A DNA stretch of 59,194 nucleotides, taken from NCBI GenBank assembly GCA_944321565.1, contig CALULT010000012.1, forward strand, positions 1 through 59,194. The letters run 5' to 3'. Source of the DNA: an uncultured Paraprevotella sp. (lineage in GTDB: Bacteria > Bacteroidota > Bacteroidia > Bacteroidales > Bacteroidaceae). Position numbers and translations under genes: made by a program. The notes beneath the pieces are model-generated. The model was not told the origin of the DNA. It ran no database searches and worked only from the letters and a program-made list of their open reading frames with translations. This document shows positions 30,377 through 47,084 of the stretch, piece by piece (the stretch's first letter is position 1; every line of letters starts with the position of its first letter).

Positions 30377-31447
30377 TCAAATTGTATAAGTGGTTGGATT
30401 AACCTCCAAAAACTTTTTACCTAACTCCTCTTCGTAAAATAGAGGCAATAGGTTTGTTTCCACCTCTCTCCAACTTTCATGCTCTTTTAATTTTATATCA
30501 GATTCTCCCCACCATCCCATCATCTTGCGCTTATACAAGCACTCAACTGTACGTCGTGGGAACTTTGCCAAGTAACTACCATAGAATGAATCGTGAATTT
30601 TATAAGTACAATTTGAATCATGAATGAATTCCTGCCATGTATTGCTTAGTTCATTATGATTAAAACCTGGACGTTCAATGATATCTATGTGGTTAAATCT
30701 TTGAGCAGGAAGATACTTCTCAAAAGCCTCTTTAAGCAATTGAGTAGCTTCTACATCTGATTTGGGAGCACTATAGCCAAAAATAGTGACCATTTTCGCC
30801 CTACACAAATAGCAACTTACATTGATCCATTCCTGTTTGATGAAGGAATTTGAATTGTAATCCTTATGCTTCACGGGATATAATAGTGGCGACTTATGAT
30901 AAGGAGTGCCACAATTATCACACTTGCCTCTTTGTAAGGCACCGAAATGATTACATTGCTCACAATAGCCAGCAGCTACATTACCATGCAAGAATGTAAG
31001 CTTGGGTAGATTCTTTGTAATTCTTGACGCTCTATTATATGCTTGTATCAATAACGGTTCCCAGTTGAATGTCGCAATGATGTCTTTTCTTGTTAGTGCA
31101 AGTACAAGTTTGTCGTAAATTGTGATTTCGTCAGGCAATTGTAGTTTTGAAAAGTAGGAAAAAATAGCGTCTTCAAGTTGCAGACGTACCTCTTTGCATT
31201 CTTCCCCACGCTCATACAATTCTGTATAGATATCTTCTATATTTTCGCTTTGCGTGTCTAATTTGACATTTTGCAGGATAGATTCAAGACCAATATTCTG
31301 TATAAATCCGTGCATAACAGAGCAAGGTATTCCATTTTTATCACCATTGGGTACGGTTGCAATGGTCGCCCCTGCTCCAAGAATAACAACATGTGGTCGT
31401 GTATTCTCTATTTCAACTATTTCATCGTGTGTCAATTCCTTACTCAT
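30377..31447 (-). CDS. SIR2-like protein with zinc ribbon, last gene of the BREX operon
   Basis: A 356-residue protein with sirtuin landmarks in order: the NAD-binding GAGAT (24-28), an Asn in FNWE (128) where sirtuins have QNID, the His-Gly pair of LHGN (154-156), and a CxxC...CxxC zinc ribbon (Cys162, 165, 176, 179) right after it. Next comes a late glycine strand (FGYSAPKSD, 223-231). This order is that of true sirtuins rather than the zinc-less SIR2 domains of Thoeris or DSR. The C-terminal 110 residues are not recognised. Its ATG shares one base with the brxL stop (TAATG), so it is translationally coupled to BREX. It may deplete NAD or deacylate a BREX component; neither is shown. Confidence 0.8.
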   Translation of the reverse strand: MSKELTHDEIVEIENTRPHVVILGAGATIATVPNGDKNGIPCSVMHGFIQNIGLESILQNVKLDTQSENIEDIYTELYERGEECKEVRLQLEDAIFSYFSKLQLPDEITIYDKLVLALTRKDIIATFNWEPLLIQAYNRASRITKNLPKLTFLHGNVAAGYCEQCNHFGALQRGKCDNCGTPYHKSPLLYPVKHKDYNSNSFIKQEWINVSCYLCRAKMVTIFGYSAPKSDVEATQLLKEAFEKYLPAQRFNHIDIIERPGFNHNELSNTWQEFIHDSNCTYKIHDSFYGSYLAKFPRRTVECLYKRKMMGWWGESDIKLKEHESWREVETNLLPLFYEEELGKKFLEVNPTTYTI

Positions 31448-33480
31448 TAAATCATTTTTTGAATAAGCATCTGAGCGTTTGCGTAGAATGGAATATCTGT
31501 TTTGCCAAGGATAGTTGCCGGTAATGTTGCCATTTCCGTCAGATTATCCATGGGGACAAGTACATTTTTAGCCCCATTCTCAGACAGCATAGATACTCTG
31601 TCATTGAAATTGAGAGCTCGCTCGATGGCACCACCGACACTGATGTTACCAATCACACCAAGGCCTGTTTTTAGATTCCTGCCGAAAATGGAAGAAATAA
31701 TCCCGGCAAAGACAGCACTGCCTATACCTTTATGAACACTAACTCCCAAGAGAGTTGTGACTTGTATCGTTACATCGAGGCGATTCAGTGAGTGACCTTG
31801 TGAAAGTAGCGTTTTCTCGTTGGCACGAATATAGTTGTAGGTATTCTTGATATCTTCCTTTGCTTCCGTAGAAGTACTTCCAGTGATGGTCAGTTTTCCG
31901 TTTCCGGTCATCGTGATGACTTCCACTTTCACAAGCGAGACTTTATCGCCATCACTGGTTGCCGTATAGCATGTGCCTGGAGCAAGCGGGGCATCCTCAA
32001 TGAGATGGCTTCCCCGTTCTTCGGGAACAGATACAAAAAATTCCTCCTGCGTTTCTTTGTCAATATAGGAGAAGTTCGTGTCCCAGAACTCCATTCCACC
32101 AATGCGCTTTAACTGCTCTTTTACACGTCGGCGCATTTCAATAGCCCATACCAAGTATGTGCGTACATTCTCTTTGGTATATTTGCCATCGGGATGAAGC
32201 AATTTGATTAAGCCCGACACCGTTTTACGCACAGGTTTCGTATCGCGTTGTTTCATTTGAGAGCCCAAAACAAAGAACTCATCAATCGCATTGGTGTAGT
32301 TCGCTTTGCGCTGCGCATGTAGTAGTTCACTAAAGAAATCCGTACTGAATCCAAAGTGATTGGTGAAATTGCAAGGCGCAAACTTCATGATTTCCCAGCC
32401 TGGCAAGAAAAATCCGATTCGATCCAAAAAGGCTGTATCGTTGCAAATCTTATCACTAAACGGACTAAAGAGATGAGAAGTCTGCAATACAGTTTCTACT
32501 GGCTGGTTGATATTACCATTCAATATGATGGAAGCATTGGCTGATTTCTCTCCGCTTTTCCCTGCCCGAGAGAAGGAGCCGGATTCCATGTAATCTTTCA
32601 TCAAAGGAACCACTTCTTTATCTTTAAAGAGTTCATCGGTAGATTCGTCAAAGCAGACTGCATCCCATTTCCCCATGGCTCCTATTTGTCCATTCGCATT
32701 GTTGACAAATAACGATGCTGCGGTACCCTGACCTCCGGACACCAGCATGGAATAAGGAGAAAGTTCTTTAAAAACAAATGACTTACCAGAACTTCTTGGT
32801 CCTAACTCAGCCATATTGAAGTTGGCTTCTACCAAAGGAATGAATCGGGAAAGAAGGAGCATTTTCATACGCTCTGTCATACCTTCGGATTCCGGTTCAT
32901 AGCCACCACTCCGCAACATCAGATTCATCCATTCTTCATCTGTAAATTGACTACGGCTCTGACATACTTTCTGATCATCAAAGTTGGAAAGTTGAATGGG
33001 TCTGATTTTTGAAATGCAGAATGGATAAATCTTATTGCCTATCATATAAGTAGAATCATAATTAATATCAATGACTGCCCAAATTCCACCCATCATCATC
33101 TTTTCATGCTGGCTGACAAGCTCATCCGAAATATTAGCTTCGCGGATATTTGTATTGGACAGTTCTGCCCAATATTTATCTTTGGATGCGTCCAAACGAA
33201 CTGAAATCTTGTCAATAATTTTATAGTTCCCTCGTTCACGAATCTTTGCTTGCACCAAATTGGCTTCATCCGGATTCACGTAGTGTTCACGCAACACTCG
33301 TTTTACGTTTTCCACTCCTTCTGTAATCTTCTGCTCATCGTCCGTACTGCATGAGTTTGCCAACAAATATTCAAGAACGAATACCGGGACATTGGCTCCG
33401 CCTTTCACTGAGCGAACAATATCTTTACGTACTACAAAACCTTTGAAAAGGTCAAGTAACTTATAATCGAAATCTATCAT
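31447..33480 (-). CDS. brxL: BREX AAA+/Lon-like protein BrxL
   Basis: A 677-residue protein. The AAA+ domain has Walker A GPRSSGKS (227-234) and Walker B WDAVCFDES (272-280), followed by the BrxL block NGNINQPVETVLQTSHLF. The C-terminal 120 residues look Lon-protease-like, but the usual Ser-Lys dyad is not evident: the Ser region reads KGIGSAVFAG and the Lys position reads RALNFND. So it is probably not a protease; known BrxL forms DNA-binding rings. It lies 17 bp after pglZ and is coupled to the SIR2 gene downstream. Confidence 0.93.
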   Translation of the reverse strand: MIDFDYKLLDLFKGFVVRKDIVRSVKGGANVPVFVLEYLLANSCSTDDEQKITEGVENVKRVLREHYVNPDEANLVQAKIRERGNYKIIDKISVRLDASKDKYWAELSNTNIREANISDELVSQHEKMMMGGIWAVIDINYDSTYMIGNKIYPFCISKIRPIQLSNFDDQKVCQSRSQFTDEEWMNLMLRSGGYEPESEGMTERMKMLLLSRFIPLVEANFNMAELGPRSSGKSFVFKELSPYSMLVSGGQGTAASLFVNNANGQIGAMGKWDAVCFDESTDELFKDKEVVPLMKDYMESGSFSRAGKSGEKSANASIILNGNINQPVETVLQTSHLFSPFSDKICNDTAFLDRIGFFLPGWEIMKFAPCNFTNHFGFSTDFFSELLHAQRKANYTNAIDEFFVLGSQMKQRDTKPVRKTVSGLIKLLHPDGKYTKENVRTYLVWAIEMRRRVKEQLKRIGGMEFWDTNFSYIDKETQEEFFVSVPEERGSHLIEDAPLAPGTCYTATSDGDKVSLVKVEVITMTGNGKLTITGSTSTEAKEDIKNTYNYIRANEKTLLSQGHSLNRLDVTIQVTTLLGVSVHKGIGSAVFAGIISSIFGRNLKTGLGVIGNISVGGAIERALNFNDRVSMLSENGAKNVLVPMDNLTEMATLPATILGKTDIPFYANAQMLIQKMI

Positions 33481-33497
33481 AAATATTTATTTTCAGA

Positions 33498-35693
33498 TTA
33501 AAACAAATCATCTATATCCCGAGCATGAGATATTTCTATTGGACAACTATCCAACTGTTCCGTGGTTTGAAAATCAACGATAACGAATTTACACGCTGTT
33601 CCTATCATTTCCAATTCCTTGGATAAGGAGGTCCCGGCTTTCAACGTTTCGACGCTTGAACTCAACAAATTTCCTTGGGTATTATATAACTGCACCTTTA
33701 TTTTCCGAGAAGAGGTGAACAAATCACTTGCATCACCTTCCGCCTTCAACTTGACCGTGAAATAATTACCCGTAACAGCTTTCAGTTCTTCCTTATTGGT
33801 GATTGTTATCTTACAGCCGCTCACTTCAGTTTGGTCTTTATAGAAGCAATAGTGGGGAATGATGCACTCTTGAGGAGTCAGACCGCCATGGGCATAACCA
33901 TAGGTACCTCTACTGACAAATGGTTTGTCCGTTGGAGCAAAGTAAAGATAGGCATACCTCATGTTCCGTCCACTTTTTTCTATGAATGTAGTATCACTCA
34001 ACTGATCATTGCTCAGTATGAAACGTTCGTCCACTTTAATTTCTGTAGCTGACGGCACAGGAATCTTATCAGCTTCGTCCAACAAACCTGTAATGACAAA
34101 GCCATGGTCGGTAGTGAGGTAAACCATGTTGTATCCCATTGCAAGAAGTTGCCTAATTTTCTCAGCCAGCAACACATGATAGCCACTAATGTCCTTCAGT
34201 CCAGCCAGCTGTTTCTTTTCTCCTACCTGGTCGATATCCCCAAAAGTAAGTAGCAGTTTTTCGGCTGTAACACTTTCGTTGAGATTATCAAGTATCATCA
34301 CTTCCAATGAAGGCACTTGCTTTTTGAGATGGGTAAAGCGTACTTGAGCCGATGTTTCTACCTTGTCGCATCCATAGAGCGCACTCATGCCACATTCAGT
34401 GACCGACGGAAGCGAAGAAAAAGCGAAATCACGATTCACCTTTCCGGAAATTTCATTGGCTACGGCATCTGCTATCTCCAACCGCAGTCCATCCCCCACA
34501 ATAACAGCCACTTTACCTGCTTGCAATAAAGCATTGACTACCAATCCCTGTTGCGTGGATTGGTATTGGTCACAAAGACTGAACCACTTGTCGTGAAGCA
34601 CCTTTACTTGTTGTTCATAATGATATTGTAACGGTCGCAACGTGCCCGGATTATTGAGGAAAGCCACATAGAGTAGGCGCATTGCTCTGTCCAAGCAGCA
34701 AAAATGAGTTTGGTAATACTTCGCTAATGCTTCAAGTGAGTTGATTTTGTACAGTTCATTCACATGATCACTCATCAATACCACCAGTTGTTTCAACCAG
34801 TCAGCCTTAAATGATGTCGCATATTTACTATTGACACGTTCATTGATAGCATGAAGGCAAGCGAATGTATCCGCACCATTGAGCAATGCCTGGCTAAGCA
34901 TCTCTGTGAGTTTACGGTCGAGTTGAACAAAAGGATGATCAGGGTGTGCTTTCGTAGGATTGCAATCCGACGGCAACTCGTACCCTTCCATATAAGTCTT
35001 TAGGGCAGCATGAGCTGACACTTTATCAATCAATGTATAATAAAGCTGGAGCAAGTCAGCAGTTATCTTATTTTGAACCAACCCATTAAAAATAGCATGC
35101 ATGATTTCGCGAGCCATCATTTCTGCCGTCTGGTGGGTACGTTGTTTACCCATCAAGTGATAGACTTCATTGGTAAATACTTCGCACACCGTCTCGTCCA
35201 TATCCTTCAGGGTTTGTTGGGGGGCGCAGACAAATTGAACGATATAGCTTTGCAGGTCAAATGGCTTAATGATACCTGCAGCCACACCCTTCCACCAATT
35301 TAAATCCTTATCCAGGCTCAAGCGTGCTGCCATCACCAAACTATCCCCATCTATGCTTGCGTTCACCCCGACAGCAGCAAACAGCCTTGTCTTAATGTAA
35401 CCCTCTATGTCTGTAAGGTCTATCATTCCGCCCGTTTCGGCATATTCCAGCAAATATTTGATTTCGTTTTTGGGCATAGAGGTATAAAAGACCACATCCT
35501 TATTCGGGAAGTCCTTTTCCGCACGATAGCGCACTTCAAGCTCTTCAAGCTCATTATGAGCCGTCATTAGTGAAATAGTTGAGGGCAGCACCTTCAACAA
35601 GAATGCACCGCTACCATGAGCATCGCATACTACAGCTCGCCTCCCTCGGGCTAGAAGATCCTCTATATCATGTCTAAACCATTGTCCTATCAT
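33498..35693 (-). CDS. pglZ: BREX alkaline-phosphatase-fold protein PglZ (type A)
   Basis: A 731-residue protein required for type I BREX. The PglZ core begins at about residue 395: metal-binding Asp401 in VIVGDGLRLE, the nucleophile-type Thr in SLPSVTECGMSALY (428-441), the TTDHGFVITG site (527-536) and His602 in HGGLTPQEC. The N-terminal 390 residues are helical and probably make contacts in the complex. A beta domain closes the chain. It follows the Schlafen gene by 83 bp; that gap holds the repeat structure at 35731-35793. Confidence 0.93.
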   Translation of the reverse strand: MIGQWFRHDIEDLLARGRRAVVCDAHGSGAFLLKVLPSTISLMTAHNELEELEVRYRAEKDFPNKDVVFYTSMPKNEIKYLLEYAETGGMIDLTDIEGYIKTRLFAAVGVNASIDGDSLVMAARLSLDKDLNWWKGVAAGIIKPFDLQSYIVQFVCAPQQTLKDMDETVCEVFTNEVYHLMGKQRTHQTAEMMAREIMHAIFNGLVQNKITADLLQLYYTLIDKVSAHAALKTYMEGYELPSDCNPTKAHPDHPFVQLDRKLTEMLSQALLNGADTFACLHAINERVNSKYATSFKADWLKQLVVLMSDHVNELYKINSLEALAKYYQTHFCCLDRAMRLLYVAFLNNPGTLRPLQYHYEQQVKVLHDKWFSLCDQYQSTQQGLVVNALLQAGKVAVIVGDGLRLEIADAVANEISGKVNRDFAFSSLPSVTECGMSALYGCDKVETSAQVRFTHLKKQVPSLEVMILDNLNESVTAEKLLLTFGDIDQVGEKKQLAGLKDISGYHVLLAEKIRQLLAMGYNMVYLTTDHGFVITGLLDEADKIPVPSATEIKVDERFILSNDQLSDTTFIEKSGRNMRYAYLYFAPTDKPFVSRGTYGYAHGGLTPQECIIPHYCFYKDQTEVSGCKITITNKEELKAVTGNYFTVKLKAEGDASDLFTSSRKIKVQLYNTQGNLLSSSVETLKAGTSLSKELEMIGTACKFVIVDFQTTEQLDSCPIEISHARDIDDLF

Positions 35694-35730
35694 AAACCAA
35701 TCGTCTTTCTTTCAATGTTTTATAATTTTG

Positions 35731-35793
35731 CGCTCGTAAAATCGCTCGTAAAATCGCTCGTAACGGTTTGTAATTTTCATGTTTTTACGAGCG
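35731..35793. repeat. three 12-bp direct repeats plus one inverted copy before pglZ
   Basis: On the plus strand CGCTCGTAAAAT occurs at 35731-35742 and 35743-35754, and CGCTCGTAAcgg at 35755-35766. TTTTTACGAGCG, the inverted copy, lies at 35782-35793 inside the last codons of the Schlafen gene. In the mRNA, CGCTCGUAA near the stop codon can pair with any one of the three copies, giving alternative hairpins between the two genes. It may tune pglZ expression, mark a processing site, or change by repeat slippage. Confidence 0.75.
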
Positions 35794-37435
35794 ACCAAAC
35801 GGATATATTCCCTTGCGTTCTATTCTGAATTTTTTGTTCAGTTCTTAGCTTCCGAAGAATATTATCAACTTTATTTCCTTTTTGCTTATCAGAGAGCTGA
35901 TCAGGCAGTATGTCCCAAAGCAAATTCACAATCTCCTGTTTGGTCAATGAACCGTGATCTTTGAGTGAATCTAACAGTAATGTCTCACACTTCTTGCCAT
36001 CCAACCCTTTGTGCTTGGAGTATTCCACCTTTTTATCGGTAGCTTGAGCCACTTGTTTCGATACATAGATATGAGGTAACCGCCCTTCGACCAGTTTTCT
36101 TTTTCTCAGCATCTTCAACGCCGTATCCGTAATCTGTTTGCCCTTCTGAACCTGATCAAGCAGTACGGCATCAACAAGCGACAAATCCTGATTCTCCATC
36201 AGCATGACACTATAATTCTCATCAATGATTGTACCGGGAAGCGTCAATATGGTCTCCGTGGCTGTAGATTTCTCATAATCCGGCATAGGCAGGAAACGTT
36301 CCTTTTGGCTTTCAAACATTTTATGAATACCAAATCCTTGGGTATCAATCATCTTAATATTCACCATTGCTTTTACAAGAGCTGGATTTCGATAAGATTT
36401 AGGCGTTTTCTGGCCGGTTATATAATCTTGGTAAGAACCGTCATAAAAGGTTCCGTCGTTTTGAAAAACCAGTTGGTCCTTATCTTCCGTTACGATAATT
36501 CTAGCTCCCGCCTCATATTTTTGATGAGCGATGCAATTATGCATGGCTTCCAAGATGCTTTCCGTATCGTATTTCCAGACTTCGGCTGGTATCAGCGAAT
36601 GCCGGGGATAGATTTTGAACCGATAATTTCTGATGCGGCCTAATAATTGGGTGGTAGAACGGATAAAAGGTATAGTATAGATGTCGCCAAAAGTCTGACC
36701 ATCCTGAAAGCATTTCCATACGATTTGTCCGATGTGTCCCAGTTTGTACACCTGTTCTTCCTTGCCGACCAAAAGCATGGTGGTGCGTGTAACATGTCCT
36801 CCATGGGTAAGACAAGCTTTATCCAGAAAGACTTCATCCGTCCATTCATCGCAGGCTGCAGCCAAATTAGGGTATCGCTGCTTATAGCCTTCCCGGGCTG
36901 TCTTGATTGCTTCAGGGTCGAGATCGGCTAACGTAGCATCATCAATGATTTGAGCTGTCCAATCGTAATGTTCTTCTCTTTCTTCGAGGATCGTGTTACG
37001 ACGGGAGTCTGTCAATTCAACCAAAGAGTCATCTATCCGTTGCCACGCCTTGTTATGTGCATAAACCGGACGGCGCATCAGGTGTTTGGGCACATGAATC
37101 ACCCAGACGGTCTTATGGCTATCCGTTGTTACATATTCCTCTACCTGCAATCCTTCTGAAGGAAGGTTGGCGCATTGCGAAATGAGCCGTAAGCGAGCCT
37201 TTTCCACATCATAATTATAGGTGTTGGTACCCACTATTTCCAATGTCTGGTCCACAACCCCCACAATGAGCGTGCCACCCTCCATGTTAGCGAGGGCAGA
37301 TACATACGACACGACATCATCTTTTTCTTTCCCGTTGAAATCGTTCTTCAGATTTTTAAATTCCTTCCACTCACACGCCTCATTTTCCGTTGGATAGTTG
37401 GCGAGTAGATACTGTCGCAATTCTCTTTCTGTCAT
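35777..37435 (-). CDS. Schlafen/AlbA-type ATP-binding protein inside the BREX operon
   Basis: A 552-residue protein. The N-terminal AlbA_2 (Schlafen) domain spans about 5-150 (ACEWKEFKNLKNDF, SYVSALANMEGGTLIVGV). A GHKL-like ATPase domain follows at about 280-380, with an EAMHNCIAHQKY N-box and VFQNDGTFYDG. The C-terminal third holds winged-helix-like segments (DAVLLDQVQKGKQITDTALKML, TKQEIVNLLWDIL). Proteins of this design are often transcription regulators, and some Schlafen domains cut RNA. It lies 29 bp after pglX and 83 bp before pglZ, so it is an extra operon member, not one of the six core BREX genes. Confidence 0.85.
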   Translation of the reverse strand: MTERELRQYLLANYPTENEACEWKEFKNLKNDFNGKEKDDVVSYVSALANMEGGTLIVGVVDQTLEIVGTNTYNYDVEKARLRLISQCANLPSEGLQVEEYVTTDSHKTVWVIHVPKHLMRRPVYAHNKAWQRIDDSLVELTDSRRNTILEEREEHYDWTAQIIDDATLADLDPEAIKTAREGYKQRYPNLAAACDEWTDEVFLDKACLTHGGHVTRTTMLLVGKEEQVYKLGHIGQIVWKCFQDGQTFGDIYTIPFIRSTTQLLGRIRNYRFKIYPRHSLIPAEVWKYDTESILEAMHNCIAHQKYEAGARIIVTEDKDQLVFQNDGTFYDGSYQDYITGQKTPKSYRNPALVKAMVNIKMIDTQGFGIHKMFESQKERFLPMPDYEKSTATETILTLPGTIIDENYSVMLMENQDLSLVDAVLLDQVQKGKQITDTALKMLRKRKLVEGRLPHIYVSKQVAQATDKKVEYSKHKGLDGKKCETLLLDSLKDHGSLTKQEIVNLLWDILPDQLSDKQKGNKVDNILRKLRTEQKIQNRTQGNISVWSLVKT

Positions 37436-37464
37436 AGGGATAATAACGCAAAAAGTGTTGATTA

Positions 37465-40400
37465 CTACCAGTCTGCATTCAGATATTTCTTCATTTGCCC
37501 GGCATTGAGCACCTCGCAGCTCAGCATTTTCCGCTTTTGCAAAGGAGCTATGTTTTTCCCGACGCCATCATCCAGCTTCGGATTATAGCCACTGGCAAGC
37601 AGGTCATCTATCTTGGAGCAAAAATCAGCCAGTTCACGCAGCTGCAGACGAGTCTCTTCCGCTTCCATGCGGGCATTGGCATCGGTTTGTCCTTCGAGTG
37701 CAGATAGACGGTTACGCAAGACGCTGTCACGGTTTCCTGCATATACACTCTTCAAACGATAGAGGTTATCACGGCTCCATTTATAAATGCTGACGTACAA
37801 TTCCAAGGCATGATGTTCACCGCTACTGATATGCCATATAAAGGGCGTCTTGGGCAGATACATAAACAGGTTCAAGTGGTCACTCAACTGCTGGAAGAAG
37901 CGGTTGAGTAAGAACTTGTCAAGCGGCATGCCCAACAGGTTGAAGATAGTACTCATGTGAGCGGGCTGATAGCCGCGTTCATTCAGTTCGGCTTCGATGC
38001 GCATCACCAACTGCTCTTCACCTGTGCTTTCAATAATGGGCACGATACCATCATCGTCTTTAGACAAGATGCTACGGATAACATCCACTATCAGTTCAAA
38101 GGCCAACGTTTGGGTGCGTTGCGCCGGAAGCACGACTTGTTCACGCGCCTGGTGCCATACTTCGATGGGGTTCATTTGATGGCGAATGCAGAATTCCTCC
38201 CAATTGTTATGGCTTTGGTAGAGGATGTCGAAGTCATCAATGCGTGTTTGGTTATCTTCGACAGGAAGCTGCCGGATATAAGCCCATACGTCATCATGAG
38301 GCTTGAAATCTTCTTGTTCGCTGAGCCATTGCAGGTAGCTTGCTTTCGCTGCAGTACTTACCGGAAGAGAACCTACGGGCATACCTTCTTTCTCGATGAC
38401 CATCTGACGGTCATGCTCGTTCAGCTGATAGATGTCAAACACGGTTTCGTTGATGACGGCTTCATTGATAAGTACCTGCGTCAAAAGGGCATTCTCGTAG
38501 TTGTAATAGTTGAGAAGTGCTTCCTTGGGGGCTATTCCTGGGGCAATGGGACTCTGTGTATAAAGTGGCTCAATTAGAGAATATGTATAAATTCTTTTTT
38601 TTATAGCAATGCATTGTTTTACAAGCAAAGAAACTCTTGAAGAATTCGGGTCATTTGGAATCTCAAATGGAATCCGTTTTATATCACCAACTTGTGTTGA
38701 TACCGTAGGGTTTAAACATCTTAAGATATATGAAGTAAGTATTGAGTTCAAGAAACCAAGTAGGTAATAATTATTTAAATCGTTCTCTTTTAGAAAAACA
38801 CATGGACCTTTTTTATCAAAAACATATCTATTTTCTATATATCTAAAACTGTTTCTTGCACCTGTTTGAGAAAATGTTATTCCTTCTTTGAAATAAAAAC
38901 GATTATTATCTGTTGTAGACAATTCTTTGCCATTATCTTCAAAGTTTATAACTAGCCAATTATTTCCATACCATTTATTATATGAACCGCCTTTTTGAAA
39001 ACCGACCCATTTTAATTTATCTTGAGGATAATAAGACGATATTGTTTCATTATTTACTTCCCAAAAGAATCTAAGAAAACGAGGATTATTTCCTGTCATT
39101 AATCCAGTTACAGAAAAACTTTTTTTATCCAATAATGAAGAACTCATTTTGTTTCTGAATTCGTCTGAAATCCAATAAATAAACGGCCAGGTTTGTATTT
39201 CTTTAAGTTTCTCCTGAGAAATATAATAAACATGCCTATTCTTGTTCCCTTGAACAATATCTTGTAAAGCCTGTAAGCAATACATTTTTTTGTTTTTTTC
39301 TTCAGGAGTGCGAGTGTACTGGTCTAAAGATATAAAACATGATTCTTGGGAAGATTGATTTTTTTCTAAAACATAAAAGGCAGGAGCATTTGAGAAGCCA
39401 CCACCATCATTAAACATATTGGTGGAATCTGCTCCATGTTCAACAAATAGGCTGATTCTCATTTTTTCTAATATAAAAATTCGAATATCCTTATATGTTT
39501 TAATGTACATAAAAGACAACGGATGAATCATACCCACCTTACCATTACCCCCCGTCAGTTCACAGCAACGTTTAATAAACGCTGCATACAGATTGGAATT
39601 GAACTTCAGTGGTTTCTTATAATTGTTGTCCACAAATTCTTTCAATTCTGATCCAAAGTCGGCACTGTCCGTATAGGGCGGATTAGCTACGGCGATGTCA
39701 AACTCCGTAGTCAAAATCTCTAAGAACGTTAGCGCATCGGTTACTTTGGAAAGGGAATAAGGATTGCTGCTGATAGCGCTCAACTGATGACGCAAACGCT
39801 CAATGGCGATACGCTTAAAATTAAACATGTCTGCTTTCCATTGATTGGCAAACATATCGTCTGCATTGACAGGAAGCAACCGGTCGAAGGTTTCTTCTAC
39901 ACGTATCAGTGATCCAAATTTATAGGCATTCTGCAAATCCTCCCACACCATTTTGAGCGTGTCCATTTCGGCATCTTCCCATTTATCGCCCATCATCAAA
40001 GCCATTTCTATCTGATCAAAGTCGGGCAATGTGAAGGCGGTAGCAACCACATTGAGGTGTTGCGGAAAGTGCATGCGGCGACCACCCAGCTGCCAGGCTT
40101 TGATGTAAAGAGACAATTGGGTAAGCTGAGCGGCACGTTCATCCAAATCCACTCCATAAAGGTTGTTTTCCAAAATCAATTTGGGTATGTCACGGCGCGA
40201 ATAGTCCGCTCCAAAATTCTTTACCTGGTCTTGATACAAATCGTAGAACACTTCGCAGGCATAAAGCAGGAAGTTACCGCTACCACAGGCGGGGTCAATC
40301 AAACGCACATCTTCCAGTTTCTTCGCCCTGACACCTGCCACCGGGAAAGGAGAAGGAGCGGGAGCATTGGCTACCAAATACTTCTCGCGCAAAGGAGAAG

Positions 40401-41139
40401 AGGGATACATCTCCAAGTACTGTTTCACCAAGGTGTTGTCCACTAAGAATTTCACCACCCAATGCGGTGTATAGACCTGGCTTTGCAGGGAAACTTTGTC
40501 ATATTCAGTCTTTGCCCCCGAATCTTTATGTGCTTGTTTCTCCACTTGGTTGAAGTTCTCGTAGAGCCAGCCTAAGATATCATCCCCCTTCCAAATCTCG
40601 GCACCGCAATCAGGATCCTGTTCCACGGCATTGAATGCCTCGATAATCTGAAACAATTCATCGGCAGTAGGCAACTGCGCATAAGGGTAGTCAGTCCGAT
40701 AAATGGGTAATTTTTTGCCCAATTCCTCAAACTTGTCATTGAGAAAATGCTTCAATCCTTCCCGTTCAGCGTTTCGCTCTTCAGGATGCTCTTCCAGCCA
40801 GGCATTATGGGCAAACGAGCGCCCCGCATGCTCGGTGCGGCGGCGGATAATCTCAGGAAAAAGTTCCTTGTCTTCCATCACCTTGATGGCAGCAATTCGA
40901 TTGAACAGGGTAAACACACACTCACGGATGGTTTCCTGGCGGGCTGATGTATAATCAGCCTGACCAGCCATGTGGGTGGTCAGTATATTATCCAGTTGGC
41001 GACGTGCTTGTTGGCGTTCCGCCGGTAAGTTATCCAAAGGTTGCGCATCCGATGCTTTCAAGCCCAAACGCTCGAATCGGTTTTCAAAAGCTTGCTGTAT
41101 CAAGCTGCGGATGGCAAGTACATGTTGTATCAGTTTCAT
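37465..41139 (-). CDS. pglX: BREX adenine-specific DNA methyltransferase PglX
   Basis: A 1224-residue class I methyltransferase that marks host DNA in BREX. SAM motif I is DPACGSGNF (282-290) and the catalytic motif IV is NPPY (486-489). The N-terminal helical part and the C-terminal 370 residues are conserved-looking. Residues about 535-855, the likely target-recognition region, are encoded by strikingly AT-rich DNA (38580-39530): two 60-base lines I counted (38941 and 39001) are 27-28% G+C, while a line in the catalytic part (40081) is 53%. This suggests the recognition domain was swapped in. It lies 36 bp after brxC. The frame is intact. Confidence 0.95.
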   Translation of the reverse strand: MKLIQHVLAIRSLIQQAFENRFERLGLKASDAQPLDNLPAERQQARRQLDNILTTHMAGQADYTSARQETIRECVFTLFNRIAAIKVMEDKELFPEIIRRRTEHAGRSFAHNAWLEEHPEERNAEREGLKHFLNDKFEELGKKLPIYRTDYPYAQLPTADELFQIIEAFNAVEQDPDCGAEIWKGDDILGWLYENFNQVEKQAHKDSGAKTEYDKVSLQSQVYTPHWVVKFLVDNTLVKQYLEMYPSSPLREKYLVANAPAPSPFPVAGVRAKKLEDVRLIDPACGSGNFLLYACEVFYDLYQDQVKNFGADYSRRDIPKLILENNLYGVDLDERAAQLTQLSLYIKAWQLGGRRMHFPQHLNVVATAFTLPDFDQIEMALMMGDKWEDAEMDTLKMVWEDLQNAYKFGSLIRVEETFDRLLPVNADDMFANQWKADMFNFKRIAIERLRHQLSAISSNPYSLSKVTDALTFLEILTTEFDIAVANPPYTDSADFGSELKEFVDNNYKKPLKFNSNLYAAFIKRCCELTGGNGKVGMIHPLSFMYIKTYKDIRIFILEKMRISLFVEHGADSTNMFNDGGGFSNAPAFYVLEKNQSSQESCFISLDQYTRTPEEKNKKMYCLQALQDIVQGNKNRHVYYISQEKLKEIQTWPFIYWISDEFRNKMSSSLLDKKSFSVTGLMTGNNPRFLRFFWEVNNETISSYYPQDKLKWVGFQKGGSYNKWYGNNWLVINFEDNGKELSTTDNNRFYFKEGITFSQTGARNSFRYIENRYVFDKKGPCVFLKENDLNNYYLLGFLNSILTSYILRCLNPTVSTQVGDIKRIPFEIPNDPNSSRVSLLVKQCIAIKKRIYTYSLIEPLYTQSPIAPGIAPKEALLNYYNYENALLTQVLINEAVINETVFDIYQLNEHDRQMVIEKEGMPVGSLPVSTAAKASYLQWLSEQEDFKPHDDVWAYIRQLPVEDNQTRIDDFDILYQSHNNWEEFCIRHQMNPIEVWHQAREQVVLPAQRTQTLAFELIVDVIRSILSKDDDGIVPIIESTGEEQLVMRIEAELNERGYQPAHMSTIFNLLGMPLDKFLLNRFFQQLSDHLNLFMYLPKTPFIWHISSGEHHALELYVSIYKWSRDNLYRLKSVYAGNRDSVLRNRLSALEGQTDANARMEAEETRLQLRELADFCSKIDDLLASGYNPKLDDGVGKNIAPLQKRKMLSCEVLNAGQMKKYLNADW

Positions 41140-41175
41140 ATCGTTTGATTAGTCTAATTAAAGGGCACTTAAGTA

Positions 41176-44100
41176 TTAATTATCAAAGTCAAGATCATCA
41201 TCAGCACCAAAGCTGTTAAGCAGGGTCAGCTGTTGCTTCAACCATTGACGATACTCGCCTACAGAAAGTCTTCCAGAAGGCATTTTCTGTTTCATGCTAC
41301 GCACTTTGGGCTGCGGCTGAGAATCAGCTTTGCTTTCAGAAACATCCGGCCGCTCTTTCGCTTTGGGTTTCGGCTGAGAAGTCGGATCAGTGGTCACAAT
41401 CTCGGTTTCTATAACCGCCAAAGAGGTTTCGTAAGCACTCACCTGACTGAAGGCATAACTCATATCCCGAAGCATCAGCCCGCTCTTGGCACATTTCGTA
41501 CTAAACCCATTGAGCACTACTTGAGGAATCTGGTTTTTCTCGCAAATCTTCTTTATGTCTGCAATCTGATTGAGCAGATTCTTATTCCATGCTTCCGGAT
41601 AAGCACTTATGCGCTTTTGAAGTGCGCCCAGTTTAGCATGCAAATCGGCATAACTCATAGTCACTTCTTCGGCATAATGCTTCATCAATATAAAATAATG
41701 ATCCTTTACCTGCTGGGTAATTTGGGACATCTTATTGGCATTGGCTACGATGTTGATGGCATACATTTGCATGAATTGTTCCTTTAGCGGCATAAAGGAG
41801 CTTTTATCGCAAGATGACTTATCCAGTTCGTCTTCCACTTCTTCAATGAATTTAGCCTTTTCACGAAGTGCCGGCAGGTCTTCGTGAATAAACTTCAAGT
41901 CTTTGGCTGCATGTTCCACTGCATGGACGAATTCATCTTGATTGTTTTCGTCCAGAAACTGCTTGGCAGTTGCAAAATAGTTGCTGTCTGTCACCGTATG
42001 GCTATAATCGGCAAACACGTTGCGGGCTGCTACAGAGAGTTGGAACTTCTTTTCCAATTCTTCATCACCCATAATGCTATCCACGATGCGTTTGCTGATT
42101 TCACGGGAAAGTGTGCGAATGGCATCTACCAATTCGTAATCATTCATCTTGTAATTCACCTGTTCACCCGTCCACTTTTGGTAATGACAATCATCTCGAA
42201 GCACCTCTACAATTTCTTGCTTTTCATTATAGGTCAAGCTTTTGGCTACGGCTTTGAAAGAAGCTTTTGCAAATTGTTTGGAATTACTGAAGGCAATATG
42301 GGAGTCTGCATCACTGGCTGCATGGTACTCTGCCCCCCCATGCTTGACAATAATCTTGTTAGCACGGAACAAAGCCGCCAGGGTTGTCACAAGCGTACCG
42401 TAACTATAACCTGTAGGAGGCCCCGAAAGCGTCTTTTCTAAATCTGCTCCAACTACATAGCCTTTCAAAGCGGTCATAATCTCGGCCACCACACTGAGCT
42501 GTTCTCCAGCAAAGTGACCTTGTGAATCAAAGAACTTGAAATCATCACCGGAAAATAAATTCCGGAGTTGATTGTCTGCGCACTTCAGCACTTTAGGGGC
42601 TAAAGAGTCCGACAGTTGTGAAGCAAGACGACGAGTATAGATGTTGTTATACATTTGTCGCTGCAACTTATCCAGTGTCGTCTTGTAATTATCATCATTC
42701 AACAGTGAAGTGTTGTAACAATATACAAGCGTAGCATGGTTATAGGCTTTGGCAATCAACGCTTTTACCTGTTCTTGTTTCTCAGGAATGGCGTTCACCA
42801 GTCTGGCCTGCACATTTTTCTCTTCTTGAGTGGCATACGACTTGGTTTTCAAGTCGTTCATTTGCGCCAACTGTTCAAGCAATTTGTATATCTCGTTGGC
42901 ATCCTTTGTATCCGGAATGAGACTAATGGCATTCTTGGTTGCTTGCGTTTCCTCCTTAACCTGCTCAATATACTTGTCACGGTCTGCTTGTGCTGCAAAG
43001 ATTTCATGGAAGACAATGTTCAAGTCATTGCCTTGAACATTAGACAAAGGCTCATCGTTATTGGTCTTCACCGCAAAATCCACACTAAGGGCATCCACCG
43101 TGCAGGAAGTCGCATGCCGTGTAATAGAAAGACTTTTCAGTATTTTTACGGCATCCGATTTGATACGGTAACCCGGAATGGCAAAGCCATTCAAATCATT
43201 GATGATTCGTTGTTCAATTTCACTGGTAATACGATATTGATTACCCGTTAAAATCAAAATATTAACCTCTGTCAGTTGATCGAGTGCTTTGGTTACTTCT
43301 GCCTTCACATGGTAGTAATCATCCGGTGAACTTACATACGATTTGGCAATGTTTTCTGCATTGGTGCTGATTACCTCTGCCTGTGTCAGGAAGTGAATGG
43401 TTTGCAAAAGGTCACGGCCTTTTACAAACTTGTATTCAGGTTCTTTAATGAGACCTGCTGCTTGTTCATACCGATTATTAAGGGAGTCGGATACATTGTC
43501 TTCAGCCTGACGGCAAAGTTGGGCGGCATTCACATGAGTAGTCACATCTTCTTCTTTGACAGCTTCTTTCTTCAATATGTCAAAAGCAGAGAGCAGCATG
43601 CCGCGTGTACCGATTTGTGTCTTTACAGTAGTCTGAGTACCAAAAAGGAAATACTGCAACATCTTGAACTGGTGTTCAAAGAAAGGATAATAATCCGCAT
43701 AGGTTTGGGCAGAAACCGTTTTCTTCAAATTGGTCGCATTGATATTGGTCAGGTCACCCAGCATGCCGCTGTTTTTCTCAAAGTACCCTTTTAACTGTTT
43801 CTCGCCTTCATCGTTTTTAGCCAACAATCGATGACGAATAATTGTTTCTACTTCTTCGGCTTTGATATCAATATGATTTTTAAAGCGGTCACGTATCTTG
43901 GTCAGCTTATTCTTATCTACATTGGCAGAGTTAATGACATCGTCCAACCGTTGTTGCGCAATGGCAATCGTCCAAATGCGTTGTCCACTATCGGCCAGTG
44001 CTTCTGCCATTCCTTCCAAATCAAGAAGATTGATTTTGTGCTGGGTAATGGCTTCACTCACTTCGTCAATCATGAACACCACACGTACATCATTCTTCAA

Positions 44101-44826
44101 ATCAAGGAAACGCTGCAAATCAGCACGCAACTTATTCGCATCGTAGTTTTGGATACGTTCTTCAATGAGTTTTTTTGTTTCCAGATAATTTTCATTATCA
44201 ATGCCAAGAGCTGCAAGGCCCATCTTTAAAGCTTTTACCACTTTGGTCATGGATTTGCGAGCTTCAGACCAAGGAAGCCCCGCACCTTCCTCGACTTTTT
44301 GGATAAAGGTGTTGTATTGTCCGTTAATGAATAGGTCATACTCCCAAAAGCCTATTTGATTGTCTGCAAAGCCCAAAGAGCGAAGGAAAGCAGCCATCAT
44401 CATATAACTGATGCCATGTTCCCCATGTTCCTTGGCAGAATCAAACAGTACCACATGGTTCGCCGTCCTCCCTATAGAATCAATCGAATTCTCTAAAATG
44501 TCTGCATCGTTCAATCCTTGAAGCTTAGGAAGAAACCGCTCTCTCACTGGAGTTCCTGCAATAATCCGATTGTCAAGCAACAAACCTACCATCTTGGCAA
44601 AATATGATTTACCGGAACCATAAAAACCACTCAGCCATAAGCCCGGTTGCTTCGTGCCACTTCGATAAATATCACAAAAATCAGAGAGGTGCTTTGCCAA
44701 ACTTTCTGTGAGGATAAAGCCATTAAGCTCCTCCAGTATGCTTTCTTCACTCTGCGAATTAAGGTCAATGACACTCTTTATATCATCTTCTAATTGAATA
44801 GAAAGTATATCTTTAATCTTAGCCAT
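41176..44826 (-). CDS. brxC: BREX P-loop ATPase BrxC
   Basis: A 1216-residue ATPase, core component of type I BREX. Walker A is GFYGSGKS (67-74), with the flanking LWLSGFYGSGKSYFAKMVGL typical of BrxC. A Walker B-like VVFMIDEVSE (near 250) and an arginine-finger region follow. The C-terminal half is largely helical and coiled-coil, with an acidic-proline stretch near residue 1150 (PTSQPKPKAKERPD). It starts 15 bp after brxB. In E. coli and other systems BrxC is needed for both methylation and defence. Confidence 0.94.
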   Translation of the reverse strand: MAKIKDILSIQLEDDIKSVIDLNSQSEESILEELNGFILTESLAKHLSDFCDIYRSGTKQPGLWLSGFYGSGKSYFAKMVGLLLDNRIIAGTPVRERFLPKLQGLNDADILENSIDSIGRTANHVVLFDSAKEHGEHGISYMMMAAFLRSLGFADNQIGFWEYDLFINGQYNTFIQKVEEGAGLPWSEARKSMTKVVKALKMGLAALGIDNENYLETKKLIEERIQNYDANKLRADLQRFLDLKNDVRVVFMIDEVSEAITQHKINLLDLEGMAEALADSGQRIWTIAIAQQRLDDVINSANVDKNKLTKIRDRFKNHIDIKAEEVETIIRHRLLAKNDEGEKQLKGYFEKNSGMLGDLTNINATNLKKTVSAQTYADYYPFFEHQFKMLQYFLFGTQTTVKTQIGTRGMLLSAFDILKKEAVKEEDVTTHVNAAQLCRQAEDNVSDSLNNRYEQAAGLIKEPEYKFVKGRDLLQTIHFLTQAEVISTNAENIAKSYVSSPDDYYHVKAEVTKALDQLTEVNILILTGNQYRITSEIEQRIINDLNGFAIPGYRIKSDAVKILKSLSITRHATSCTVDALSVDFAVKTNNDEPLSNVQGNDLNIVFHEIFAAQADRDKYIEQVKEETQATKNAISLIPDTKDANEIYKLLEQLAQMNDLKTKSYATQEEKNVQARLVNAIPEKQEQVKALIAKAYNHATLVYCYNTSLLNDDNYKTTLDKLQRQMYNNIYTRRLASQLSDSLAPKVLKCADNQLRNLFSGDDFKFFDSQGHFAGEQLSVVAEIMTALKGYVVGADLEKTLSGPPTGYSYGTLVTTLAALFRANKIIVKHGGAEYHAASDADSHIAFSNSKQFAKASFKAVAKSLTYNEKQEIVEVLRDDCHYQKWTGEQVNYKMNDYELVDAIRTLSREISKRIVDSIMGDEELEKKFQLSVAARNVFADYSHTVTDSNYFATAKQFLDENNQDEFVHAVEHAAKDLKFIHEDLPALREKAKFIEEVEDELDKSSCDKSSFMPLKEQFMQMYAINIVANANKMSQITQQVKDHYFILMKHYAEEVTMSYADLHAKLGALQKRISAYPEAWNKNLLNQIADIKKICEKNQIPQVVLNGFSTKCAKSGLMLRDMSYAFSQVSAYETSLAVIETEIVTTDPTSQPKPKAKERPDVSESKADSQPQPKVRSMKQKMPSGRLSVGEYRQWLKQQLTLLNSFGADDDLDFDN

Positions 44827-44841
44827 AACTTGAACTTTAGC

Positions 44842-45390
44842 TTATTTTACTACCACACAGCGGTAGTGTGAAGCTACCTGATGGTCGAGAAACACAATTT
44901 TATCTTGATGAATGACAGCTGGATAGAAAACCACCAACGGAATAGATGAATGCATAACCGCATCTTGCTCCATAATATGGATATTGGAAAATCCCATGCC
45001 AAAAATAACACCGGTATGTATCAATACAGGGATTTTTCCCTGGGCAAAACTTTCACTGATGGCATGCATAATGCTGCGGTGAAAAGTCTCTTCAAAATTC
45101 GCACTGGAAAAAAGTTCGGTGCTGAATTCCTGATAAGCTTCTTTGAATTCATCCCATCCTATATTGTCTATGAACTCCACATACAATTGACGCAGGTCTA
45201 TAAAGTCACATCCCGACAATTGCGCTTTTGCATCGGCAATATACGACTCTTCGTCAATGGGCGGATAAACAAACAAGATGCTTCTTCCTCCATTGGCATC
45301 CACAGAAAGTTTCGCTAAATCAGCGTGAATGGCTAACTTTAAATCCTTCATTAAACGGTTATGTTCTACCGCATAGTTACTCGTGTTCAT
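44842..45390 (-). CDS. brxB: BREX protein BrxB (DUF1788)
   Basis: A 182-residue protein of the DUF1788 family (RLMKDLKLAIHADLAKL, SILFVYPPIDEESYI, then IPVLIHTGVIFGMGF and a C-terminal VVFYPAVI). The length is normal. Its ATG overlaps the brxA stop (ATGA), and brxC follows by 15 bp. It is a core type I BREX gene, thought to act in a complex with BrxC and PglZ; its biochemical role is not well defined. Confidence 0.92.
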   Translation of the reverse strand: MNTSNYAVEHNRLMKDLKLAIHADLAKLSVDANGGRSILFVYPPIDEESYIADAKAQLSGCDFIDLRQLYVEFIDNIGWDEFKEAYQEFSTELFSSANFEETFHRSIMHAISESFAQGKIPVLIHTGVIFGMGFSNIHIMEQDAVMHSSIPLVVFYPAVIHQDKIVFLDHQVASHYRCVVVK

Positions 45391-46109
45391 AGGCTCTTTA
45401 AATCAATAGTAACCTCATTGCCCATTTGAGTTATATCCCAGTAAGGAATGAATTCTATTTTTTTTAAACGGTTAATCAAAATCATTTCATCAAGAAAAGC
45501 AAACTTAATAAATGGATTCTTCAAGGTCTTTTCGTTTGGACAAACCAACTGGCACCAACGAATAAAATAGACAAACAAAGCATCACCGATGACGGGATAT
45601 TTGATTTCTTTACGCTGATTACCAGTTGCCAATCCCAACTTTTTAAGAGCTGTGAGATACTTAGAGCCTATAATCTTCAGTGTAGTCTCCGACCAATTCA
45701 ACTCTTCCGCATTCTCCTTCTTTAAGTAACGAACATAGCTATAAATATCATTCGTACTCAAACTACTCTTGCCTTGATAGACTGCTTTCATGAAAACCTC
45801 GGCTGTGATGTCATAAAAGAGTTGATTCCCATAAAGCATCTGCCAATAAATCATAAGCAACTTATCATTTTCAGAAAAAGCATTGTCCACTAAAGAATCA
45901 TAGAAAAACTGTTTGTGCTGTTTACTTTTAAACACTAATACAGCATCGTTTATCGCCTTAATGAAACGACCCAAAGATTTAGCCGTTCGAAATTGGAAAG
46001 ACTTGTATTCAGACGGCACTCCAGTGTATTCTTCAATCATATATTCTATCATTGAAGCATAGTTTGGAATGCTTCCCATCACATTTATACTGGAATTATA
46101 TTTACTCAT
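45387..46109 (-). CDS. brxA: BREX protein BrxA (DUF1819)
   Basis: A 240-residue protein of the DUF1819 family, all-alpha and NusB-like (EYTGVPSEYKSFQFRTAKSL, then MIYWQMLYGNQLFYDIT and YVRYLKKENAEELNWSETTL). BrxA of another species has been shown to bind DNA. Start and stop both overlap neighbours by 4 bp (the XRE gene upstream, brxB downstream), tying the regulator and the first two core genes into one translated block. Confidence 0.92.
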   Translation of the reverse strand: MSKYNSSINVMGSIPNYASMIEYMIEEYTGVPSEYKSFQFRTAKSLGRFIKAINDAVLVFKSKQHKQFFYDSLVDNAFSENDKLLMIYWQMLYGNQLFYDITAEVFMKAVYQGKSSLSTNDIYSYVRYLKKENAEELNWSETTLKIIGSKYLTALKKLGLATGNQRKEIKYPVIGDALFVYFIRWCQLVCPNEKTLKNPFIKFAFLDEMILINRLKKIEFIPYWDITQMGNEVTIDLKSL

Positions 46110-46408
46110 GAGCTCAAGTCTTCTTTTATCAATTCAATTGCTTTTGCTGTTACTGATGTAGATTTACCTTCAGTAAGTTGCTGCATTTTATCAGCCAACT
46201 GTAAAGCATATAGCTCTTCTGAATCAATTTCATAGTAATTAGCAAGAGTTTCCAGCTGTTCAGATTTCAACGTTCGTTCTCCTCGCTCAATGCGACTATA
46301 GAGTGGCGGCTCTACACCTATCAAAGCTGCTATATTCTTTGCAGGAATGCGTCTAAGTACGCGCAATTGATATATCTTATCTGCTAATCTACTTATCTTG
46401 TTTGCCAT
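46106..46408 (-). CDS. XRE-family regulator at the head of the BREX operon
   Basis: A 100-residue protein with an XRE/Cro helix-turn-helix at about residues 10-65 (LRVLRRIPAKNIAALIGVEPPLYSRIERGERTL) and a short helical tail. It is the first gene of the operon, behind a TATCTTTG box, and overlaps brxA by 4 bp. Other BREX loci are often controlled by WYL-domain BrxR proteins; here the small XRE protein probably fills that role by autoregulation. Confidence 0.88.
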   Translation of the reverse strand: MANKISRLADKIYQLRVLRRIPAKNIAALIGVEPPLYSRIERGERTLKSEQLETLANYYEIDSEELYALQLADKMQQLTEGKSTSVTAKAIELIKEDLSS

Positions 46409-46436: not shown

Positions 46437-46531
46437 TAAATTAATTGCCAAATATCGGAAAGTTTTTCAAAAAACAATCCCTAACCTATACTTTTCTTGA
46501 AAACTGCTTCAAAAAGACACATGGAGATATA

Positions 46532-46592
46532 CCTCCCCGAAAAAGGCAGTAGTACTTACTTGGCAAAGTAAGTACTACCTTTTGGGGGGAGG
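46532..46592. repeat. imperfect inverted repeat related to the 15517-15582 palindrome
   Basis: Arms CCTCCCC..AAAAGG...TAGTACTTACTT pair with AAGTAAGTACTA..CCTTTT..GGGGAGG around a short GGCA loop. TACTTACTTG is shared with the 66-bp palindrome 31 kb away, and TTTTGGTAA follows within 25 bp (TTACCAAAA on the other strand), as it does there. It lies between the BREX promoter and the vapE leader. Confidence 0.8.
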
Positions 46593-46673
46593 TTGCTCTT
46601 TTGGTAACTAATGGGACACCCGGTCGGGGAAAGGGGCCTGAAGACCGCCTCTGTCCGGATAGCCAATACGGTC

Positions 46674-46698: not shown

Positions 46699-47021
46699 AG
46701 GGATTTTCAGATGGATGCCGTATGAAAATACTGTCCCGCCTGAAAGGGGGAACGACCCTTTTGGGGTTCTAAGAACCCTTTTGTTCGCCATGCGGATGAT
46801 TGCTTCGTGGATGTGAAACCCCTCCGGCCCTGCAAGGCGGAGGAGTATTTGTGACGGACTGTGAACCCTTTTAGCCTAAGGGGTTCACAGTAACCTGCTG
46901 TAAACCAAGCGATGTGAACCCGTGAACCCTTCACGGAGGAAAACCGCTGTAGGGAGGTGTGAAGCGGTTCCGGAACAGTTTACGTCAATCCATTTTTTTC
47001 AAACTATTTCGTCCCGGGGGC
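46699..47021 (+). other. hairpin-rich gene-free leader upstream of vapE
   Basis: In the 676-bp gap between the XRE gene and vapE, this part holds at least four strong stems: GGGTTCT/AGAACCC near 46755-46771, CCTCCG/CGGAGG (46821-46843), CTGTGAACC/GGTTCACAG (46859-46890) and CCGTGAA/TTCACGG (46920-46936). The word GTGAACCC recurs three times. No convincing ORF was found. It could encode a structured RNA or a long regulated leader. Confidence 0.5.
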
Positions 47022-47052
47022 TTGACAAGGGCTTTTCCATGTTGTATATTTG
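47022..47052 (+). promoter_or_regulatory. vapE promoter with sigma70-like and Bacteroides elements
   Basis: TTGACA (47022-47027), a 17-bp spacer and TATATT (47045-47050) form an almost ideal sigma70 promoter. TATATTTG (47045-47052) at the same place also fits the Bacteroides -7 box. It lies 33 bp before the ATG at 47085. A perfect TTGACA is unusual in this order. Confidence 0.55.
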
Positions 47053-47084
47053 CAGTCGGAAAAACATTAAAACCACCCACGCCT

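Follow-up and report, generated by a model that had tools for sequence, protein, structure and literature searches.

A complete type I BREX operon with Schlafen and SIR2-fold accessory genes in an uncultured Paraprevotella sp.

In the usual description, bacteriophage exclusion (BREX) systems shut phage out and the cell survives. For the BREX family it is established (PMC11341690, PMC13326643) that host DNA is marked by adenine methylation and that replication of unmarked phage DNA is blocked. A 2026 survey (PMC12839542) records Schlafen genes within or next to BREX and related loci from at least 1017 taxa; these Schlafen ribonucleases (RNases), which carry a minimal histidine-kinase domain and a winged helix-turn-helix (wHTH) as fused parts, are counted there among suicidal backup effectors. 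PARIS and BxaP are abortive genes stored in BREX or restriction–modification (R-M) loci, according to PMC10799925 and, for PARIS, also PMC12839542. This paper examines a nine-gene locus on a 59,194-nucleotide (nt) contig of an uncultured Paraprevotella sp. (CALULT010000012.1; the whole stretch is called the window). The locus is a complete BREX-1 operon with two non-core genes, a Schlafen gene and a SIR2-like gene. The favoured interpretation, held with somewhat better than even confidence, is a BREX-1 system with exchangeable accessory genes at two positions, between pglX and pglZ and after brxL, which would supply RNase-type backup effectors and effectors that deplete nicotinamide adenine dinucleotide (NAD).

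The genes lie on the minus strand (46408-30377) in the order XRE, brxA, brxB, brxC, pglX, Schlafen/HATPase, pglZ, brxL, SIR2-like:

46106..46408, minus strand: XRE-type (HTH_3) regulator, first gene of the operon (Pfam HTH_3 2.8e-7)
45387..46109, minus strand: brxA (Pfam BrxA 40.9 bits, cut-off 23; PADLOC 1.4e-45)
44842..45390, minus strand: brxB (PADLOC BrxB 2.8e-33)
41176..44826, minus strand: brxC, P-loop ATPase (PADLOC 3.1e-296; NF033441 428.9 bits, cut-off 400)
37465..41139, minus strand: pglX, N6-adenine methyltransferase (NF033452 BREX-1 PglX 566.9 bits, cut-off 500)
35777..37435, minus strand: Schlafen AlbA_2 plus HATPase_c_4 gene, accessory slot 1 (Pfam)
33498..35693, minus strand: pglZ, divergent (Pfam PglZ 38.5 bits, cut-off 25; PADLOC PDLC02545 1.4e-168)
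31447..33480, minus strand: brxL with BrxL_N, ATPase and Lon_C domains (TIGR02653 790.3 bits, cut-off 628.25; Pfam)
30377..31447, minus strand: SIR2-fold gene with zinc-ribbon-like cysteines, accessory slot 2 (by fold; candidate NADase)

An XRE gene followed by brxA-brxB-brxC-pglX-pglZ-brxL is the order of type I BREX. PglX, BrxC and BrxL exceed curated NCBIfam cut-offs, and BrxA and PglZ those of Pfam. The type is assigned on the six core genes in classical order in one operon, the BREX-1-specific PglX and the presence of a PglZ protein. The window differs from type I BREX by its two extra genes and by a PglZ that stays below the curated NCBIfam subtype cut-offs (type B, 79.3 against 400; type A, 57.1 against 270.35). 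BrxC carries the Walker A motif GFYGSGKS at residue 67, a motif search finds a Walker A in BrxL too, and PglX has DPACGSG at 282 and NPPY at 486. The XRE/brxA and brxA/brxB junctions overlap by 4 nt, followed by gaps of 15 (brxB/brxC), 36 (brxC/pglX), 29 (pglX/Schlafen), 83 (Schlafen/pglZ) and 17 nt (pglZ/brxL); SIR2 shares its first base with the end of the brxL stop (TAATG), a 1-nt overlap. All this agrees with the original prediction, which had placed the nine genes at these positions on one strand with short gaps or overlaps, the six core genes in classical order behind an XRE gene, and a Schlafen/AlbA ATP-binding gene between pglX and pglZ as one of two genes outside the BREX core. In the largest gap (35694-35776) a 12-nt unit, ACGAGCGATTTT, is repeated in tandem about 2.7 times. 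Elsewhere in the same genome, outside the operon, Pfam finds another PglZ domain with a stronger match (L001, G000:C44:14055-14639), in a frame of 538 amino acids (aa) that we take to be possibly a PorX-type response regulator.

The Schlafen gene matches Pfam SLFN_AlbA_2 (47.4 bits, cut-off 25.3; 3.4e-12) and HATPase_c_4 (4e-13), which bears out its predicted identity. It is the same kind of gene as the Schlafen-HATPase-wHTH gene recorded with BREX in PMC12839542, so that the insertion is an already known association; the SIR2 gene is additional, and the terms sir2, sirtuin and nad each occur 0 times in the main text of that survey, to which the search was confined, supplements excluded. The window protein has E17, E22, K27 and D62, putative active-site residues. 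Across nine aligned Schlafen proteins, the window's included, E17 is present in 9/9, E22 in 8/9 and D62 in 5/9; these three are presumably the acidic active-site triad, the positions being taken from animal Schlafens. The gene is probably an RNase-type backup effector, as judged from its sequence. The pglX-pglZ position is a variable slot. Among 15 readable Bacteroidales BREX loci, the window included, it holds a Schlafen gene in five, nothing in seven, and in one each an OLD-type gene, a Fic gene (Pfam 2.3e-19) and an unlabelled 189-aa gene; the tally leaves out L127 and L133, which by eye carry other genes there. In the latter (L133:5915-11303, Bacteroidales BREX), motor-like and OmpA-like genes, Zorya-like by eye, lie between pglX and pglZ.

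The terminal gene was recognised by structure. No Pfam, PADLOC or NCBIfam family matched its protein at the limits used, and a SIR2 profile searched against Protein Data Bank (PDB) sequences gave a best E of 0.22, to an unrelated protein. A prediction from the single sequence was discarded (predicted local distance difference test score, pLDDT, 35); the model retained (pLDDT 89) has a SIR2 fold. Its best structural alignments by Z are with antiphage SIR2 NADases, and the lowest Foldseek E-values belong to Sir2 deacylases. The claim that a zinc-ribbon SIR2 gene closes the operon thus stands by fold and drew no support from sequence-family searches. Members of the family are about 340 aa long with zinc-ribbon-like cysteines. 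N128 and H154, which from motif context are the putative catalytic Asn and His, are present in all 63 aligned proteins. The gene most likely encodes a defence-type SIR2 that would hydrolyse NAD+. The partners and fusions of SIR2-HerA (Nezha), KomBC, SPARSA, ThsA and DSR2 are not seen at this locus; the family is set apart from these systems by its length of about 340 aa, its zinc-ribbon-like cysteines and its frequent place beside modification genes. With PARIS and BxaP the locus shares a backup effector in or beside exclusion loci; the effector domains differ.

A close parallel is the BREX system of Parabacteroides faecalis, which lies on two contigs, one with XRE, brxA, brxB and the start of brxC (L135; the XRE, at 1654-2025, is 54% identical to the window's and precedes brxA) and the other with brxC-pglX-pglZ-brxL-SIR2 (L025). 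Its SIR2 gene also overlaps brxL by 1 nt. At a third locus, L026, an intact SIR2 gene directly follows a 13-residue brxL tail; 10 of the 13 residues match (tblastn E 0.12 alone), inside a continuous DNA match of 79.9% over 1108 columns. The three SIR2 proteins form one branch with full support in the tree. Chance adjacency of SIR2 and brxL is ruled out by the shared 1-nt overlap and the tail before the L026 gene. A further candidate, movement of brxL-SIR2 as a recombined block (75.7% DNA identity, pglZ not alignable), was dropped on the protein identities: in four close loci BrxL is 85-88% identical to the window's, and PglZ 45-50% in the three comparable, with or without SIR2. Since the contrast holds regardless of SIR2, the brxL-SIR2 similarity shows only co-inheritance.

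Other NAD-type domains take the same place. In P. faecalis (L025:10001-12253) the SIR2 gene continues into a RES-like domain, and at L106 a RES gene stands alone after brxL, 36% identical over 280 aa to the L025 domain. The two share R, Y and E in a block R-x9-Y-x10-E, a spacing that we take to be that of RES toxins. In the window, no RES remnant matched below E 0.6. Across 19 readable BREX loci, the window included, the post-brxL position holds SIR2 in two and RES in two (one being the L025 fusion), giving NAD-type domains in 3/19; L105, L126, L127 and L133 have other close same-strand genes there. Counting the close BrxL clade alone (84% identity to the window or more), three of four evaluable loci have an NAD-type domain, on small numbers: SIR2 in the window, SIR2-RES in L025 and RES in L106, with a Sel1/GNAT-like gene in L105; L107 ends at the contig end. 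On inspection by eye, the L105 gene, 4 nt past brxL, looked unrelated.

Beyond BREX, the SIR2 family recurs beside DNA-modification operons, an observation that holds up. A profile scan of an 84,980-species collection gave 174 relatives, where an initial contig scan with the single SIR2 sequence had found none; counts refer to the best 80 of these 174 loci. At least seven relatives accompany methylase or restriction genes. At L031, in a helicase-Schlafen-methylase operon, SIR2 and the methylase share 14 nt in different frames and a 213-aa gene follows; at L042:6614-11011 (Prevotella sp. P5-92), one 1465-aa frame joins an Eco57I-type methylase to SIR2, which may be a natural fusion or a sequence error. 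Relatives stand with a helicase-methylase (L095), with an SNF2 helicase, Schlafen, N6/N4 methylase and ResIII (L055), with a type IIG-like gene (L069), between a methylase-type and a ResIII-type gene (L061), and between a DUF4391 gene and an N6/N4 methylase (L121). At L083 a methylase, an unknown gene and SIR2 precede a Schlafen gene 46% identical to the window's. At L120, SIR2 follows a RloB-like gene, so labelled from one matching neighbour of 31 and by eye; an identical SIR2 occurs in L045 and L047. The Oscillospiraceae metagenome-assembled genome locus L027:2-10900 carries, on one strand, pglZ and brxL of another type, a 949-aa gene, a prokaryotic Argonaute (pAgo), a 402-aa gene and SIR2. 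Domains among the 31 close upstream neighbours scanned (Eco57I methylase 5, ResIII 2, Mrr_cat 2, BrxL 1, RloB 1) make restriction/modification partners frequent, yet far from universal. In streptococci and Lachnoanaerobaculum (L033, L034, L035, L036, L039, L044, L075), SIR2 overlaps an unknown gene of 495-498 aa by 20 nt, a candidate two-gene system by sequence. Schlafen genes occur in 4/80 SIR2 loci, where the density of 54 domain matches in roughly 92 Mb (rounded sizes) would predict about 0.8; the counts come from searches with different models, and general defence-island clustering could explain the excess.

Under the favoured interpretation, the BREX core would mark host DNA by adenine methylation and block replication of unmarked phage DNA. 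If a phage overran or inactivated the modification/exclusion machinery, the SIR2 protein would hydrolyse NAD+; the loss of NAD+ would halt infection at the cell's cost, with the Schlafen RNase as a further backup. We infer the NADase and RNase activities, the trigger, and the control of SIR2 by BREX proteins or by their failure. The two-layer defence of the original prediction is reasonable as a layered reading. Its two genes do not always go together: in P. faecalis SIR2 follows brxL with no gene between pglX and pglZ, and the Schlafen homologue (53%) lies elsewhere, in 19 kb of sequence where no BREX gene was recognised. An inseparable Schlafen-SIR2 pair is ruled out for BREX by the same genome.

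Several findings weigh against the favoured interpretation. L025 is the only type I BREX operon among the best 80 of 174 SIR2 loci, BREX genes having been recognised by BLAST with the window's BREX proteins, which very divergent ones could escape, in flanks of at most 10 kb on contigs many of which are shorter. No other BREX gene was recognised within 21 kb at L026, nor any on four plasmid stretches with SIR2 relatives (relatives occur on five plasmid records). The nearest upstream gene of the 80 is on the same strand within 120 nt in 33, on the same strand farther off in 30, on the opposite strand in 13 and beyond the contig end in four, so that 43/80 lack a close same-strand gene, plus the four at a contig end. 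Conversely, SIR2 follows brxL in only 2/19 evaluable BREX loci, and the RES matches of L025 (22.7 bits, cut-off 23.2) and L106 (18.5 bits) are both below the Pfam cut-off. At position 130, beside the catalytic-type Asn, the window copy has Glu where 62/63 proteins have Asp, a substitution that might lower its activity. A strict Bacteroides-type promoter pattern has no match at the operon head.

Among 151 genomes drawn from the window's family, the SIR2 family occurs in six (E<=1e-20) and a BrxL relative in eight (E<=1e-100); the two coincide only in the window genome. For the order, a BrxL relative (E<=1e-80) occurs in 14 of 393 genomes and a single-sequence SIR2 match in five, of which, besides the window's, two are weak and one is at a contig edge. 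No SIR2 match was found in phage records, and viral contigs gave a single short partial one (L010, 37% over 50 residues). A BREX-specific SIR2 family is ruled out, since most of the 80 relatives lie outside BREX. Of the proposed association of both genes with BREX, the SIR2 part fails on specificity (1/80 loci) and the Schlafen part was already catalogued.

The main alternative is that SIR2 and Schlafen are self-contained single-gene defences riding in the BREX operon and using its promoter, with no mechanistic link. It is a possible, rather doubtful explanation. Most of the 80 SIR2 relatives are outside BREX, the L026 gene is intact beside a dead brxL relic (which favours riding somewhat), the P. 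faecalis Schlafen homologue is away from BREX, and SLFN_AlbA_2 domains are frequent, 31 genomes giving 54 matches. Set against this are the 1-nt brxL overlap in two species, the overlap or fusion with a methylase in three other loci and the repeated placement in modification operons, which suggest more than shared storage.

An extension of the favoured interpretation, held tentatively and a shade more doubtful than riding, is that the SIR2 family is a portable latent NADase guarding modification systems. The protein would dock to a methylase/exclusion complex (BREX, Eco57I-type methylase-helicase operons, type III R-M) or be silenced by it, and would be freed when phage inhibit that complex, which would make it the NAD-depleting analogue of PrrC, an anticodon nuclease. 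If so, the swapping of SIR2, SIR2-RES and RES would make the 3' side of brxL a socket for NAD-killing effectors.

That the window SIR2 copy is weakened or inactive and being lost is unlikely: it alone of 63 has E, not D, at position 130, and the P. faecalis copy runs into a RES-like domain absent here, but the open reading frame (ORF) is full-length and the other near-invariant positions checked are retained. Least likely of all is a regulator or protein deacylase inside BREX (of BrxL or PglX, for example) instead of an NAD-depleting effector, for which the Sir2-like layout with zinc-ribbon-like cysteines and the Foldseek E-values speak, and against which stand the best Z alignments with antiphage NADases and the presence in slot 2 of a further NAD-type domain, RES, at the loci L106 and L025.

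The operon was probably acquired horizontally by this Bacteroidales genome. In a congener (G456), the matches to a Wzi-like capsule gene and crcB are separated by only about 180 nt, so that the window has roughly 18 kb more, at about 30.1-48.4 kb; another (G435) is uninformative, with the two genes on different contigs. The operon genes have a guanine-plus-cytosine (GC) content of 0.35-0.44 against 0.50 for the whole window. Inside the DNA absent from G456, and divergent from the operon, lies a VapE-like/DUF3874 gene (46959-48371, plus strand), which may be a separate arrival because its GC of 0.64 is far from the operon's. No transfer RNA was found in a search of the window, and no integrase among the ORFs scanned in it.

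The nine genes are presumably co-transcribed. The single visible promoter proposed earlier is weakly supported. A TATCTTTG box lies before XRE; the strict pattern, unmatched there, has four matches in the window (chance mean 1.0), and a sigma-70 scan gives a single 9-of-12 match before XRE (46451-46423), with sites across the window not above shuffles (40, mean 38.0). Between vapE and the XRE start, 46531-46593 forms an imperfect inverted repeat with 21-nt arms and a perfect 13-nt hairpin, GTAGTACTTACTT/AAGTAAGTACTAC, possibly a terminator or an operator for XRE.

The apparently new part is SIR2 in BREX and a portable SIR2 family tied to modification systems, Schlafen in BREX being known. Among the literature matches listed, none describes a BREX operon with a SIR2 or RES gene, judged by title and abstract start, supplements and preprints lying outside that scope. 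The window SIR2 protein goes unrecognised by the model libraries scanned. Should BREX and other modification operons prove to contain NAD-depleting enzymes, they would defend in two stages, one of them suicidal, and anti-BREX phage proteins could act as triggers as well as escapes; the family, including its methylase-SIR2 frame and SIR2-RES fusion, is a concrete test set for this idea.

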